Of a stretch of 64,000 nucleotides of DNA, positions 44,231 through 48,222 are shown piece by piece. The notes below the pieces were generated by a model. It saw only the letters and a list, made by a program, of their open reading frames with translations, was not told the DNA's origin and did not search any database. The translations under genes were made by a program, and so were the position numbers. Position 1 is the first letter of the stretch; each line of letters opens with the position of its first letter. Source of the DNA: Bacteroidota bacterium (lineage in GTDB: Bacteria > Bacteroidota > Bacteroidia > Bacteroidales > UBA12077); NCBI GenBank assembly GCA_020444275.1, contig JAHLLG010000001.1:434001-498000 (forward strand), written 5' to 3'.

Positions 44231-46123
44231 ATGAAAAAGGAGTTATTATTTCTTGCATTTATTTTCTTTACTATTTGTTTGCATGCCAACGAAAACGTTG
44301 TGGTTGACAGTTTATATAAGCAGTTAATTAATGCTGAAGATTCAATAAAGGCAGAGATTCTAAATGAGTTAAGCTGGGAATTGCGAAACTCCGAGCCTGA
44401 AAAATCAATTGAATATGGAATTGAAGCTATTAAATTTGCAGAGCAATTTAATGATTATGAAAATTTGGTTCAGGCACATGGGTTTATTGGGGTAGCTTAT
44501 CGAATTATTGGAAATTATTCCGAATCGATGGATTATTATTTTAAGGGACTTGAATTAGCCAAGAAGTATAATCAAAAAGAGCAGGAGGGATATGCCTATA
44601 TAAATATTGGTAATTTACATATTTACCAGGGATATTATTATAATGCGATTGAGAATCTGAACAAAGCACAGGATATTGCAGAGGAACTTGGACATAAGCG
44701 AATGCTAGGATATGTGCATTTAAATATAGGGCGTGCACAAATGTTAAGGAACGAAAATCTTGAAGCATTAAAGAATTTCAATAAAGCTTTACAGATTAGA
44801 ATTGAGATTGATCAGGTTTCAGGTCAGGCTGTATGTTACAAGTATATTGGCGATATTTATTTAGAACTGGGTGATGAAAGAAAAGCCCTTACCAATTACC
44901 AGCAGTCTTTAAAAGTTGTAGACAAAGAGATGGATAAAGATTTGTATGCCAATATACATACGATGATTGCAAAAACGTATTTTACTGCCGGAAATTACGA
45001 GCTGGCTCAACGTAATGCGAATAAAAGTATGAAAATTGCATCGGAAATAGGAGCGAAGTTAATTATACGAGATAATTTCAAGGTATTGGCCGATATTGAT
45101 CTAAAAACAAATCAATATAAATCTGCTGCGGAGCATTTAACTTCGATTATTAACTATAACGATACTTTATTTAACCAACAGCTATCCGAAAAGATGTTTA
45201 ATCTGGAGTATCGTTTCGAAAAAGAACGTAAGCAAGCAGAAATTGACATATTAAATAAAGACAAGCAGATACGGGAACTTGAACTTCGCAGAGCGAGAAC
45301 ATTTAACATTGCTCTTGTGGTTATTTTGTTATTGCTTGCTGTTATGTTTATTTATGTGTTAATGTCGTTAAGGGAACGAAGGAAGCAAAACCTTTTACTC
45401 GAAAAACAAAAAGAAGAACTTGATAATATTAATAAGACTAAGGATAAGATGTTCTTAATAATTGGTCACGATTTACGCGGACCAATTGGCAATTTAAAAT
45501 CGCTGATTGAAATGTTACTGGAAGATGAGGAGATAACCAGGGATAAAAGTTTAATGGAAACTTTCAACATCTTTATGAAATCGGTGCAGTCTGTAAGTGA
45601 TTTATTGGAAAATTTGCTTTTATGGGCAAAAAGCCAACGAAATGATATCAGTTTTAGTCCCGAAAATATTAGTATAAATACAGTGATAAACAGAAATCTA
45701 CAGTTGTTTAAAACAGTTGCAGATCATAAAGGAGTTCAATTAACCTTTGATATTAAAGAGAATTATGACGTATTTGCAGATAAAAATATGTTAATGACTG
45801 TTGTTCGTAACCTTATCTCAAATGCAATAAAGTATACACCTAAAAATGGTAATGTAAACGTAACGGTAGGGTTAGAGTCAAATTATACTAAAATAGCTAT
45901 TGCTGATTCTGGTGTTGGTTTTGACCAAGAAACTGCTAATAAAATTCTTGATCCCCAAAACTTCTATACTACTTCAGGCACTAATAATGAGGCAGGATCG
46001 GGACTTGGGCTGTTGCTTTCAAAAGAATTTGTTGAAATAAATGGCGGAAAAATTTGGGCCGAGAGTATACCTGGCAAAGGAGCAACATTTTATTTTACCA
46101 TTCCTGTTTCTGATATGTCATAA
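44231..46123 (+). CDS. Histidine kinase with extracytoplasmic TPR sensor
   Basis: 630 residues. A signal peptide (1-20, ends HA then Asn) leads to about six tetratricopeptide repeats (~30-330; e.g. AHGFIGVAYRIIGNYSESMDYY, YAYINIGNLHIYQGYYYNAIE, CYKYIGDIYLELGDERKALTNY). A coiled coil (ERKQAEIDILNKDKQIRELE), a membrane helix (~356-378) and another coiled coil precede HisKA with GHDLRGP (H413) and HATPase_c (N box RNLISNAIKYTP, G1 DSGVGF, G2 GSGLGL). This architecture is common in Bacteroidota. No response regulator is adjacent. Confidence 0.93.
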   Translation: MKKELLFLAFIFFTICLHANENVVVDSLYKQLINAEDSIKAEILNELSWELRNSEPEKSIEYGIEAIKFAEQFNDYENLVQAHGFIGVAYRIIGNYSESMDYYFKGLELAKKYNQKEQEGYAYINIGNLHIYQGYYYNAIENLNKAQDIAEELGHKRMLGYVHLNIGRAQMLRNENLEALKNFNKALQIRIEIDQVSGQAVCYKYIGDIYLELGDERKALTNYQQSLKVVDKEMDKDLYANIHTMIAKTYFTAGNYELAQRNANKSMKIASEIGAKLIIRDNFKVLADIDLKTNQYKSAAEHLTSIINYNDTLFNQQLSEKMFNLEYRFEKERKQAEIDILNKDKQIRELELRRARTFNIALVVILLLLAVMFIYVLMSLRERRKQNLLLEKQKEELDNINKTKDKMFLIIGHDLRGPIGNLKSLIEMLLEDEEITRDKSLMETFNIFMKSVQSVSDLLENLLLWAKSQRNDISFSPENISINTVINRNLQLFKTVADHKGVQLTFDIKENYDVFADKNMLMTVVRNLISNAIKYTPKNGNVNVTVGLESNYTKIAIADSGVGFDQETANKILDPQNFYTTSGTNNEAGSGLGLLLSKEFVEINGGKIWAESIPGKGATFYFTIPVSDMS

Positions 46124-46180
46124 GTATTATTTAATGGATAAAATAGTTATTAGAACGAGTACTCTGGTTATAATAATTAT

Positions 46181-46210
46181 AAAAATCCTGCTTCTTTGAG
46201 CAGGATTTTT
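46181..46210. terminator. Bidirectional terminator
   Basis: AAAAATCCTGCT (46181-46192) pairs perfectly with AGCAGGATTTTT (46199-46210) over a 6-base loop. It lies between the convergent kinase and MATE genes and has a T/A tract on both sides. Confidence 0.92.
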
Positions 46211-46211
46211 G

Positions 46212-47651
46212 TTATACTTTTTGAGTTTTCCACTTTCCTTTTCTAAATAACCAAATTGCAATTAAGGTCATTATCGATTCAGCGATAATAATAGCAATGT
46301 ATACTCCATTCTCGTTAAATTCATGGAATTTAGCCAGATAATATGCTAATGGAATTTCTATTAACCAAAAACAAACAATGTTAATTTTAGTAGGCGTACG
46401 AGTATCGCCGGCACCATTAAATGCTTGGATCATAACCATGCCCATTGCATAAAAAATAAATCCTAGGCTAACAATACGTAAACCTTTAGCTCCGGTTAGA
46501 ATTACTTCTGTGTTTTTAATAAAAAGTCCAATAAAAAAATGTGGTTCCATAATAAAAATAACAGAAATTAATCCTAATAAAAGCATGTTTACGTAACCAG
46601 TTGTCCAAACTGCTTTTTCGGCACGTTCTGGTTTATTTGCTCCCAAATTTTGCCCAACTAAAGTTGCAGCTGCATTGCTTAACCCCCAGGATGGTAGCAA
46701 AACAAAAATGATAATTCTAATAGCTATTGTATATCCGGCTAATGCAGTACTACCAAACATAGCAATAATTCTTACCATACCAATCCAGCTTAATGTTGCA
46801 ATAATTGATTGACCAATACCACCTAAAGATATTTTTATCAGGTCGTACATAACTTTAGCGTTGAGTTTAATGGCCTTTTTATAAATTTTTATTCGGCCAT
46901 TACCTTTTAGCAACAAGTAAAATTGATATACAACTGCAAGCCCTCTTCCGGTTGTGGTTGCAATGGCTGCACCTTTTATTCCAAGCGCAGGAATTGGTCC
47001 CAATCCAAAAATAAACAGTGGGTCTAAAATGATGTTTGCTGCATTGGCTAAAAATAGTACACGCATAGAAACAGCGGCATCTCCAGAGCTTCTGAATACA
47101 GCATTGATTATAAACAGTAACATAATAATTATGTTACTACCTAATAATATCGTGGTGTAGGAGCTATTGAAATGAACAATGTTTTCATTTGCACCCATTA
47201 TTCGCAGCAAATCTTTGGCAAAGATCAATCCCGGAATGCCGATTAATAAGGATACTAATGAACCTACTATAATTGCTTGCACAGCCGCAACAGATGCACG
47301 ATATGGCTTTTTCTCTCCAATGCGCCTGGAAACCAAAGCAGTAGTTGCCATGCTTAATCCCATTCCAATAGCATAGATTATCGTTAGCAACGATTCGGTA
47401 ATACCAACGGTTGCAATGGCATCGGCTCCTAATTTAGATACAAAGAATATATCTGCAATAGCAAATACCGATTCCATAACCATTTCTAATACCATAGGAA
47501 TAGATAGCAATAGTATGGCTTTGCTTAATTTTTCTTTAGTAAAGTCTTTATCTGTTCCGGATATGGATTCTAATACATCTTTCCATAAAGATTTAAGCGT
47601 TCCTTTTTGAGCATATTTATAATATAATGAAACTTTATTTCTGAATAACAT
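46212..47651 (-). CDS. MATE family efflux transporter
   Basis: 479 residues with twelve hydrophobic segments in two halves. The MATE pattern is seen in LSIPMVLEMVMESVFAIADIFFVSKLGADAIATVGI and, in the second half, IGQSIIATLSWIGMVRIIAMFGSTALAGYTIAIR. The N-terminal ~45 residues form a polar extension. Such proteins export drugs, dyes or metabolites using Na+ or H+. It is preceded by a near-ideal promoter and a ~125-base leader that can fold into an unusual closed structure (47670-47778), so expression may be controlled at the RNA level. Confidence 0.93.
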   Translation of the reverse strand: MLFRNKVSLYYKYAQKGTLKSLWKDVLESISGTDKDFTKEKLSKAILLLSIPMVLEMVMESVFAIADIFFVSKLGADAIATVGITESLLTIIYAIGMGLSMATTALVSRRIGEKKPYRASVAAVQAIIVGSLVSLLIGIPGLIFAKDLLRIMGANENIVHFNSSYTTILLGSNIIIMLLFIINAVFRSSGDAAVSMRVLFLANAANIILDPLFIFGLGPIPALGIKGAAIATTTGRGLAVVYQFYLLLKGNGRIKIYKKAIKLNAKVMYDLIKISLGGIGQSIIATLSWIGMVRIIAMFGSTALAGYTIAIRIIIFVLLPSWGLSNAAATLVGQNLGANKPERAEKAVWTTGYVNMLLLGLISVIFIMEPHFFIGLFIKNTEVILTGAKGLRIVSLGFIFYAMGMVMIQAFNGAGDTRTPTKINIVCFWLIEIPLAYYLAKFHEFNENGVYIAIIIAESIMTLIAIWLFRKGKWKTQKV

Positions 47652-47669
47652 GATTGTAAAATGAGTAAC

Positions 47670-47778
47670 TGATAAAACAACAAATAATTAAAAGGATATT
47701 TAGGTAGGATTACCTAGCAGTTTGCCGTAAAGACGGGAATATATGATACAATCAGCTTCATGTTCTTTTGTTTTATCA
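47670..47778 (-). promoter_or_regulatory. Structured 5' leader of the MATE gene, candidate cis-regulatory RNA
   Basis: Read on the minus strand, TGATAAAACAA at the 5' end (47778-47768) is perfectly complementary to TTGTTTTATCA at the 3' end (47680-47670). This 11-bp stem would close a domain of ~87 bases. Inside are a CCGT-CTTT-ACGG hairpin (47736-47725), a TAGGTA-ATCC-TACCTA hairpin (47716-47701) and a TGAT-TGT-ATCA hairpin (47754-47744). The 3' arm ends 18 bases before the start codon. I could not match it to a riboswitch class I know (FMN, TPP, cobalamin, preQ1, guanidine, ZTP and fluoride were considered by eye). Confidence 0.55.
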
Positions 47779-47781
47779 ATA

Positions 47782-47813
47782 CAAAGATAGAACTTTTACA
47801 TTTTACAATGCAA
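47782..47813 (-). promoter_or_regulatory. Full promoter (-33 TTG, -7 TATCTTTG) of the MATE gene
   Basis: On the minus strand TTG (47813-47811) is followed by a 21-bp spacer and TATCTTTG (47789-47782). Both elements and the spacing fit the Bacteroidota consensus. Transcription would start near 47775-47778, giving a leader of about 125 bases. Confidence 0.75.
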
Positions 47814-47877: not shown

Positions 47878-48222
47878 TTAAATATCGTAGTTGTCGTCTT
47901 TAATATTTTCGGCCTCATCTATATTGTCATCCAGGTATTTTTCACCTTCTTCATTAACATCATCCTCAAAATCGTCTCTTAATTTACCTGCATCATCATA
48001 ATCGTCATCATCTTTTATAATTTGACGAGCTTCCGACTCTGTCATACGCACTAAATAGTAAATTTCTTCTGTTTCGAATGGTAAAGCAGAAACATACGCA
48101 CCCTTTGCATTGGTAAACGTTATCAGGTTATCTTCAAATCCATCGGGATATTCAAGCTTAATCCTGTTTACAATGTCTTCAGGAAGCTTTTCATAATCTA
48201 TTACTATTCTTTTTGCAGCCAC
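47878..48222 (-). CDS. Acidic protein of unknown function
   Basis: 114 residues. The start is GTG (48220-48222), which gives MAAKRIVIDYEKLPEDIVNR. The first ~70 residues look folded (strands around LITFTNAKGAYVSALPFE and EEIYYLVRM); the last ~45 are almost all Asp, Glu and Lys, giving a very low pI. I recognise no named domain; similar short acidic proteins occur widely in Bacteroidota. It is a single gene between the MATE gene and the large permease. Confidence 0.68.
   Translation of the reverse strand: MAAKRIVIDYEKLPEDIVNRIKLEYPDGFEDNLITFTNAKGAYVSALPFETEEIYYLVRMTESEARQIIKDDDDYDDAGKLRDDFEDDVNEEGEKYLDDNIDEAENIKDDNYDI

Follow-up and report, generated by a model that had tools for sequence, protein, structure and literature searches.

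Erm leaders carry nested hairpins that cover the Shine-Dalgarno sequence, and to our knowledge the mRNAs of Bacteroidota lack Shine-Dalgarno sequences. As far as the accessible part of PMC5418344 describes them, erm leaders combine a leader peptide with alternative hairpins, and a stalled ribosome frees the next start; tetQ of Bacteroides is listed there as a translational attenuator. The bmrCD genes of Bacillus subtilis are described, in the available portions of two papers, as having a ribosome-mediated transcription attenuator (PMC4191407, PMC5418344). In E. coli, the authors of the toiL study proposed that a hairpin represses topAI, and concluded that tetracycline induces topAI because it makes ribosomes stall at the toiL start codon; strong induction of topAI was also seen with retapamulin, an inhibitor that traps ribosomes at initiation (PMC12121999, as excerpted). 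Excerpts of a transcriptome study of B. thetaiotaomicron mention short ORFs in long 5' UTRs that are reminiscent of leader peptides (PMC7366714). No paper on an upstream ORF (uORF) preceding a MATE gene in Bacteroidota was among the matches listed in a literature search that covered the titles and abstract openings of open-licence papers only.

The leader described here precedes a MATE family efflux transporter gene in a 64,000 nt stretch of Bacteroidota DNA (the window, meaning the whole stretch that was analyzed). It is probably a ribosome-sensing attenuator of that exporter, of the translational type, in which a short uORF specifies a leader peptide and stalling induces expression. Its features are collected in Table 1. 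The resemblance to toiL, within the excerpted account of that system, lies in a short uORF and a hairpin involving the uORF region that represses, or here would repress, the downstream start. The two differ in that topAI belongs to a toxin-antitoxin system, whereas the gene here encodes an exporter in a phylum without Shine-Dalgarno sequences, and in that the repressive arm is the uORF body in toiL but the predicted transcript 5' end in the present leader. A drug response was described for toiL, whereas the leader in the window is known from its sequence and predicted fold. With tetQ, going by the brief mention of that gene and so by description rather than structure, the likeness is that an antibiotic-resistance gene of this phylum is under translational attenuation, but the gene regulated there is a ribosome protection gene. 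The erm leaders share the leader peptide and the alternative hairpins, and differ in that the long-range stem here ends 16–19 nt before the start codon. The bmrCD arrangement, as the excerpts give it, is matched by ten terminator-bearing Bacteroidota homologs that appear to have a uORF, an antiterminator and a terminator before an exporter gene, whereas the leader in the window is without a terminator of that kind.

Table 1. Features of the MATE leader and the gene it precedes (window coordinates).
Feature	Position	Strand	Basis or conservation
Bacteroidota-type promoter: TTG 47813-47811, 21-nt spacer, -7 box TATCTTTG 47789-47782	47782..47813	(-)	Sequence
P0 5' arm TGATAAAACAA, where the transcript is predicted to begin (+1 about 47777)	47768..47778	(-)	Sequence, fold, conservation
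uORF, putative leader peptide MKLIVSYIPVFTANC, 15 codons, stop TAG 47716-47714 inside P2	47714..47761	(-)	ATGAA invariant in 15/15
P1 hairpin CCGT-CTTT-ACGG, inside the uORF	47725..47736	(-)	Hairpin there in 15/15 orthologs
P2 hairpin TAGGTA-ATCC-TACCTA, which includes the uORF stop codon	47701..47716	(-)	Hairpin around or just after the stop in 14/15 orthologs
P0 3' arm TTGTTTTATCA	47670..47680	(-)	TTGTTTTAT invariant in 15/15
MATE family efflux transporter, regulated gene	46212..47651	(-)	PF01554 E 9.9e-62; TIGR00797

The MATE protein scored 267.4 bits against TIGR00797 (cut-off 147.4); at the subfamily level it clears the general MATE cut-off, at the equivalog level it clears none, and its nearest solved relatives by sequence matched at E about 2e-33. 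The gene begins with an ATG at 47651 on the minus strand, and the leader is about 126 nt long. The promoter is found where a previous reading of the sequence alone (the sequence-only reading) had put it, with the TTG, spacer and -7 box on the minus strand. Probable promoters of Flavobacterium johnsoniae have 4–5 nt between the -7 box and the start site (PMC6847099, in the part available), and by analogy transcription would begin here at 47777 or 47776. A sigma-70 promoter scan, uninformative for Bacteroidota, gave matches no more numerous than in shuffles. Just upstream of the promoter, also on the minus strand, is a gene for a 114-aa acidic predicted protein (47878-48222) that matched nothing in Pfam or NCBIfam at E 0.001. 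Where the MATE gene ends, a terminator-like hairpin (46179-46212) was called on both strands, and it is faced by a convergent 630-aa ORF (44231-46123) that looks sensor kinase-like by eye.

Fifteen genomes of the same genus, including the source genome, have a MATE ortholog with this leader. A covariance model run on 25 family genomes detected the element in 15, each of these being among the 20 that belong to the genus, with one strong match each (E 3e-11 or better) and every one at the MATE gene. Of the genus members without it, G001 lacks the 5' end of the gene because its contig stops there, and no close MATE ortholog was found in G005, G010, G015 or G016. The model also gave 15 weak matches in the 25 family genomes (best E 0.072), and at none of these loci are both exact stem-arm motifs found 60–140 nt apart on either strand. 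Among 73 distant MATE loci the element was not found, with nothing below E 1.3.

The sequence-only reading had described a closed domain holding hairpins and overlooked the 15-codon uORF that lies inside it. The uORF, the two stem arms, their spacings and the conservation of all of these can be read directly from the aligned leaders. In all 15, a -7-like box (TATCTTTA in G004) starts 12–14 nt before the G of a GATAAA motif, and the uORF ATG follows exactly 16 nt after that G. Counted from this ATG the uORF is 13–21 codons long, and G013 and G004 have an additional in-frame ATG two codons earlier. The frame is open over 13 codons in every leader, but as another frame is open too in 12/15, openness alone is weak evidence for a uORF here. 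The start context has A at -6, -12 and -13 in 15/15 and at -3 in 8/15, while that of the MATE gene has A at -3 in 15/15 and at -6 in 7/15. Work on F. johnsoniae showed that initiation is promoted by A at -3, -6, -12 and -13 and tends to be reduced by structure near the start (PMC6847099, as excerpted). Since the -12 and -13 adenines of the uORF fall within the 5' arm of P0, this arm seems to belong to the site where ribosomes land on the uORF itself. Changes at third codon positions of the uORF were more frequent than at others (permutation p 0.094), and the synonymous fraction was 0.30 compared with 0.19 in permuted columns (reached by 31/400), both figures covering 7 of the 15 leaders only; in five other leaders the changes were spread nearly evenly over codon positions (51, 43, 56). 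The signal of selection on the peptide therefore appears modest and is not significant.

Leader peptides within the genus include MKPISTFMPVFTTTC, MKPIVANILVFTTIC, MKIKTPFSAPVVE, MKPIIVFTAVVAF and MKITTTITTVVPIFNS. The APVVE* of G008 and G017 resembles the end of what we take to be the ErmA leader arrest motif. A Cys directly before the stop was observed in 6/15 of the same-genus peptides, and also at loci L051, L058, L065, L080 and L084 of the wider set described below (PTC*, PPC*, FPC*, TAC*, TTC*, TIC* and ANC*); this terminal Cys might matter for stalling near termination.

The 11-bp closing stem, P0, was correctly drawn in the sequence-only reading, and its two arms are perfectly complementary. 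The outermost T-A pair (47778/47670) may be absent from the RNA, given the predicted start at 47777 or 47776. The longest perfect match is 11 bp in this leader and 7 to 11 bp in the 14 orthologous ones. When the 25 nt after the -7 box were compared with the 45 nt before the gene for 34 promoter-box/gene pairs taken as a chance control from 400 kb of this genome, one pair had a longest perfect match of 10 bp and the other 33 had 8 bp or less. In the alignment of the 15 leaders, 96.0% of 150 cells pair, against 92.8% when the letters of the 3' arm are shuffled (4/500 shuffles reach 96.0%), and sliding the partner by 1–3 columns gives at most 62% pairing. The eight core pairs are formed in all 120 cells, with four departures from the commonest pair, all of them G-U; the outermost pair is UA, AU, GC or UG in 11/15 and unpaired in 4/15. 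The covariation score was 0.121 (0.073 in shuffles, with 1/500 reaching 0.121). The stem is thus kept in all 15 orthologous leaders, as the previous reading would have it, but its expectation of covarying pairs is borne out at 1/10 positions only, no more than in shuffles, and that one is the outermost pair, perhaps untranscribed. Conservation is good and covariation support is thin, because the core of P0 hardly varies. At G007 and G009 the TTG of the 3' arm is retained although its 5' partner has changed, and the 3' arm may for this reason have a second role.

The 3' arm had been placed close enough to the MATE start for its opening or closing to affect translation. It does lie near, with the C of TTGTTTTATC 19 nt before the ATG in this window, but the start codon itself is not directly covered. 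The distance is 16 nt in 12/15 leaders, 17 nt in 2/15 and 19 nt in 1/15, the last being the leader in this window.

From these features we infer the transcription start, translation of the uORF, repression by P0, stalling as the signal, the inducer and the direction of control, as follows. In an undisturbed transcript, the 5' end (GATAAAACAA) would pair with TTGTTTTATC, a short way before the MATE start, and the resulting P0 would close a domain containing the uORF, lowering access to both the uORF and the MATE starts. A ribosome initiating or stalled on the uORF start would cover the whole 5' arm, since the start codon is 16 nt from the predicted 5' end, so that P0 would be excluded and the MATE start region left open. 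Normal, fast translation of 13–21 codons would disturb P0 only briefly. Were ribosomes detained on the uORF, perhaps by an inhibitor that targets them and is itself a possible substrate of the pump, the MATE protein would be made.

The fold, and the idea that a ribosome at the uORF start keeps P0 from forming, are products of calculation. P0 is present in the minimum free energy (MFE) structure of 14/15 leaders (G017 is without it). In partition-function calculations on each leader with about 40 nt of coding sequence, the mean cost of opening the region from -30 to +15 of the MATE gene was 8.9 kcal/mol in the free leader and 4.0 kcal/mol with nt 1–32 blocked, the stretch that a ribosome on the uORF start codon would occupy (15 leaders). 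The decrease was seen in 15/15 and ranged from 1.9 to 8.6 kcal/mol. When only nt 25–60 were blocked, the cost stayed at 8.3 kcal/mol. As the first block lowers the cost of opening the MATE start far more than the second, the predicted switch would respond chiefly to a ribosome on or close to the uORF start, or to a queue that extends back there, and less to a ribosome farther downstream. The leader shows two features by which translational attenuators are recognized, a conserved uORF with a plausible start context (15/15) and a conserved structure that, by these predictions, limits the downstream start.

The same parts could be wired with the opposite sign, with P0 as the ON state in which the uORF is bypassed, and with translation of the uORF turning the gene off. 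The closed stem would then mask the uORF and make the MATE start look like one lying 16 nt from a 5' end. It agrees with this that the nucleotides separating P0 from the MATE ATG are unpaired in 14/15 of the MFE structures and number 16 in 12/15, like the 16 nt before the uORF ATG. We regard this as unlikely, because opening the MATE start region is on average about 5 kcal/mol dearer when P0 is available, because early stalling on the uORF is predicted to turn the gene on in the homologs with a terminator, and because toiL operates in the direction of a repressive hairpin.

The predicted leader fold has a free energy of -24.1 kcal/mol (shuffles had a mean of -15.7, z -2.95, and 1/200 were as good) and contains P0 and the P1 and P2 hairpins. 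P1 is a hairpin of 3–8 bp in the second half of the uORF in 15/15 leaders, with eight different inner 3-nt 5' arms, and is unfavourable in G018 (+1.5 kcal/mol). P2, of at least 5 bp, lies around or just after the uORF stop in 14/15 (none in G004) and also changes in sequence, with per-sequence shuffle frequencies of 0.01–0.12. As both were chosen by pairing, their perfect pairing is by construction, and the evidence is their constant place combined with changing sequence. Of three inner hairpins proposed earlier, these two are recovered, but the third, in the first half of the uORF, varies among the predicted folds of the orthologs.

This closed, multibranched fold upstream of an exporter gene, well below its shuffles in energy and conserved throughout the genus, had suggested a riboswitch, in which the multi-hairpin domain would bind a metabolite or drug and P0 would serve as the expression platform. 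A cis-regulatory RNA of the MATE gene is indeed what the conservation in 15/15 leaders and the predicted folds point to; the ligand-binding part is unsupported. Of the 25 invariant columns, 15 are in the P0 arms, five are the uORF ATGAA and the other five are scattered single columns, so that 20/25 belong to the stem arms and the uORF start. No conserved unpaired or junction nucleotides of an aptamer-like core were seen among the 25, and the sequences of P1 and P2 change. The search of Rfam that had been recommended returned no family at gathering score in the window, and within the leader only four matches with E 3.8–7.6, all far below their gathering scores. A riboswitch would also leave the start and spacing of the uORF unexplained. 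It was rejected as the best reading on the Rfam results and the conservation pattern, and we consider it quite improbable; the constant features of the leader are, from their sequences, those expected for control by a translating ribosome.

Upstream ORFs were also sought before distant MATE homologs, using a strict rule (TAnnTTTG, then an ATG 24–38 nt on, and 8–45 codons). Loci with <250 nt upstream, or where the match began after residue 40, were left out, and duplicates were removed by a shared 30-base stretch, which also dropped two of the 15 same-genus leaders. The rule found a uORF in 33 of 95 distant homologs, mostly of Bacteroidota with a few from other phyla, compared with 2 of 149 control genes, these coming solely from 400 kb of the source genome (Fisher p 1.6e-13); the shuffle expectation was a mean of 2.5 and a maximum of 6 (50 rounds). 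The 33 matches are uncurated and some are doubtful, e.g. L099, L183 and L186. In the other 62/95 no uORF was found by this rule. It detected 12/13 in the same-genus set, as it requires TAnnTTTG and G004 has TATCTTTA. In the source genome, no uORF was found by the box rule before three of the four other MATE genes. Examples of the distant peptides are MKTIVFIPTC, MKTILSLNVFIPTS, MKTLLFNIAVPS, MKTRVNITLCFPC and MRFTILPFVTAC.

These counts bear on a further alternative, that the chief role of P0 is to cap the 5' end and so slow mRNA decay, with the uORF arising incidentally from an open frame. P0 does seal the predicted 5' terminus, and neither the openness of the frame, with a second one open in 12/15, nor the non-significant signal of peptide-level selection speaks strongly for a coding function. 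However, a cap would explain neither the fixed 16-nt spacing and invariant ATGAA nor the uORFs in 33/95 distant homologs, and we hold it to be very improbable. That the uORF codons sense the supply of a particular amino acid, by amino-acid or charged-tRNA attenuation, is scarcely credible and was rejected, for although Thr, Ile and Val are plentiful in some of the peptides (e.g. MKITTTITTVVPIFNS), no codon run is common to the 15 uORFs, and the regulated gene encodes a MATE family exporter and is not a biosynthetic operon.

A scan for intrinsic terminators between the uORF and the MATE gene flagged 15 of 108 loci, all among the 95 distant ones, and none of the 13 same-genus leaders examined. 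A terminator at P2 was considered for this genus and rejected, as the T-tract after P2 is unconserved and 0/13 leaders pass the scan. In 10/15 of the flagged loci, the 5' arm of the terminator is complementary to a segment inside the uORF at codons 20–22, beginning at codon 20 or 22 (GACCGGG/CCCGGTC, GGCCGGG/CCCGGCC, GCCGGGTGAG/TTCACCCGGC and others, terminator first). A complement as good was found in 0–6 of 100 shuffles at eight of these ten loci, and in 11 and 23 at L100 and L109, respectively. The terminator calls at L062, L071, L091, L172 and L178 are weak and were set aside, their complementary segment being no better than in shuffles. By sequence, the ten leaders appear to be laid out as transcription attenuators under ribosome control, where early stalling on the uORF would allow formation of the antiterminator.

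In a protein tree covering 95 of the 108 proteins, the ten terminator-type leaders group together (support 0.998) in a clade that also includes one other uORF leader, and the 13 P0-type leaders form a separate clade (support 1.0); the remaining uORFs are scattered among leaders without a uORF. Blocking the uORF start gave a drop of >3 kcal/mol in only 5 of the 33 distant uORF leaders (L019, L055, L063, L069 and L178), so the P0 output device is not general and would be one of several.

There is perhaps an even chance that a clade of Bacteroidota MATE genes carries unreported leader peptides that sense stalled ribosomes, with one uORF input joined to different output devices. These would be, in this genus, the long-range 5'-end stem, which releases the next start once a ribosome occupies the uORF start codon; elsewhere, a terminator with an antiterminator at codons 20–22; and perhaps also another small ORF, Lys/Arg-rich at its tail, that overlaps the pump start. 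If so, a 5'-end stem whose repressor arm doubles as the ribosome's landing site would offer a distinct means of reading initiation-stage stalling in bacteria without Shine-Dalgarno sequences, and a multidrug-type exporter would be under chromosomal, lineage-wide leader-peptide control in a phylum without Shine-Dalgarno sequences. The predicted stall points are concrete, at the uORF start codon and, in the terminator group, before codon 20, and could reveal which ribosome inhibitors the pumps respond to. The suggested combination, within one gene family, of the same sensor with different output devices would be useful for the study of attenuator evolution.

Two other kinds of small ORF were seen in the distant leaders. 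A second small ORF of 38–51 codons, with a Lys/Arg-rich tail (HFKRKRNA, HKRKQSW, YIKRKQT and similar), ends 4–32 nt past the assigned MATE start at L143, L148, L051, L062, L065, L067, L161, L163, L155, L156, L147 and L167. The scan flagged 13/108 loci, the thirteenth (L164) fitting poorly, and as it required three basic residues near the end, the basic tail is a selected feature. The overlap of this ORF with the MATE start, as annotated, suggests translational coupling. At L045, L050 and L054, a four-codon ORF (MRIK* or MIIK*) is found 30 nt after a -7-like box and is followed by a similar-looking GTTTAC stretch, before MATE genes of 66–68% identity, and these leaders are possibly, from their sequences, of another type.
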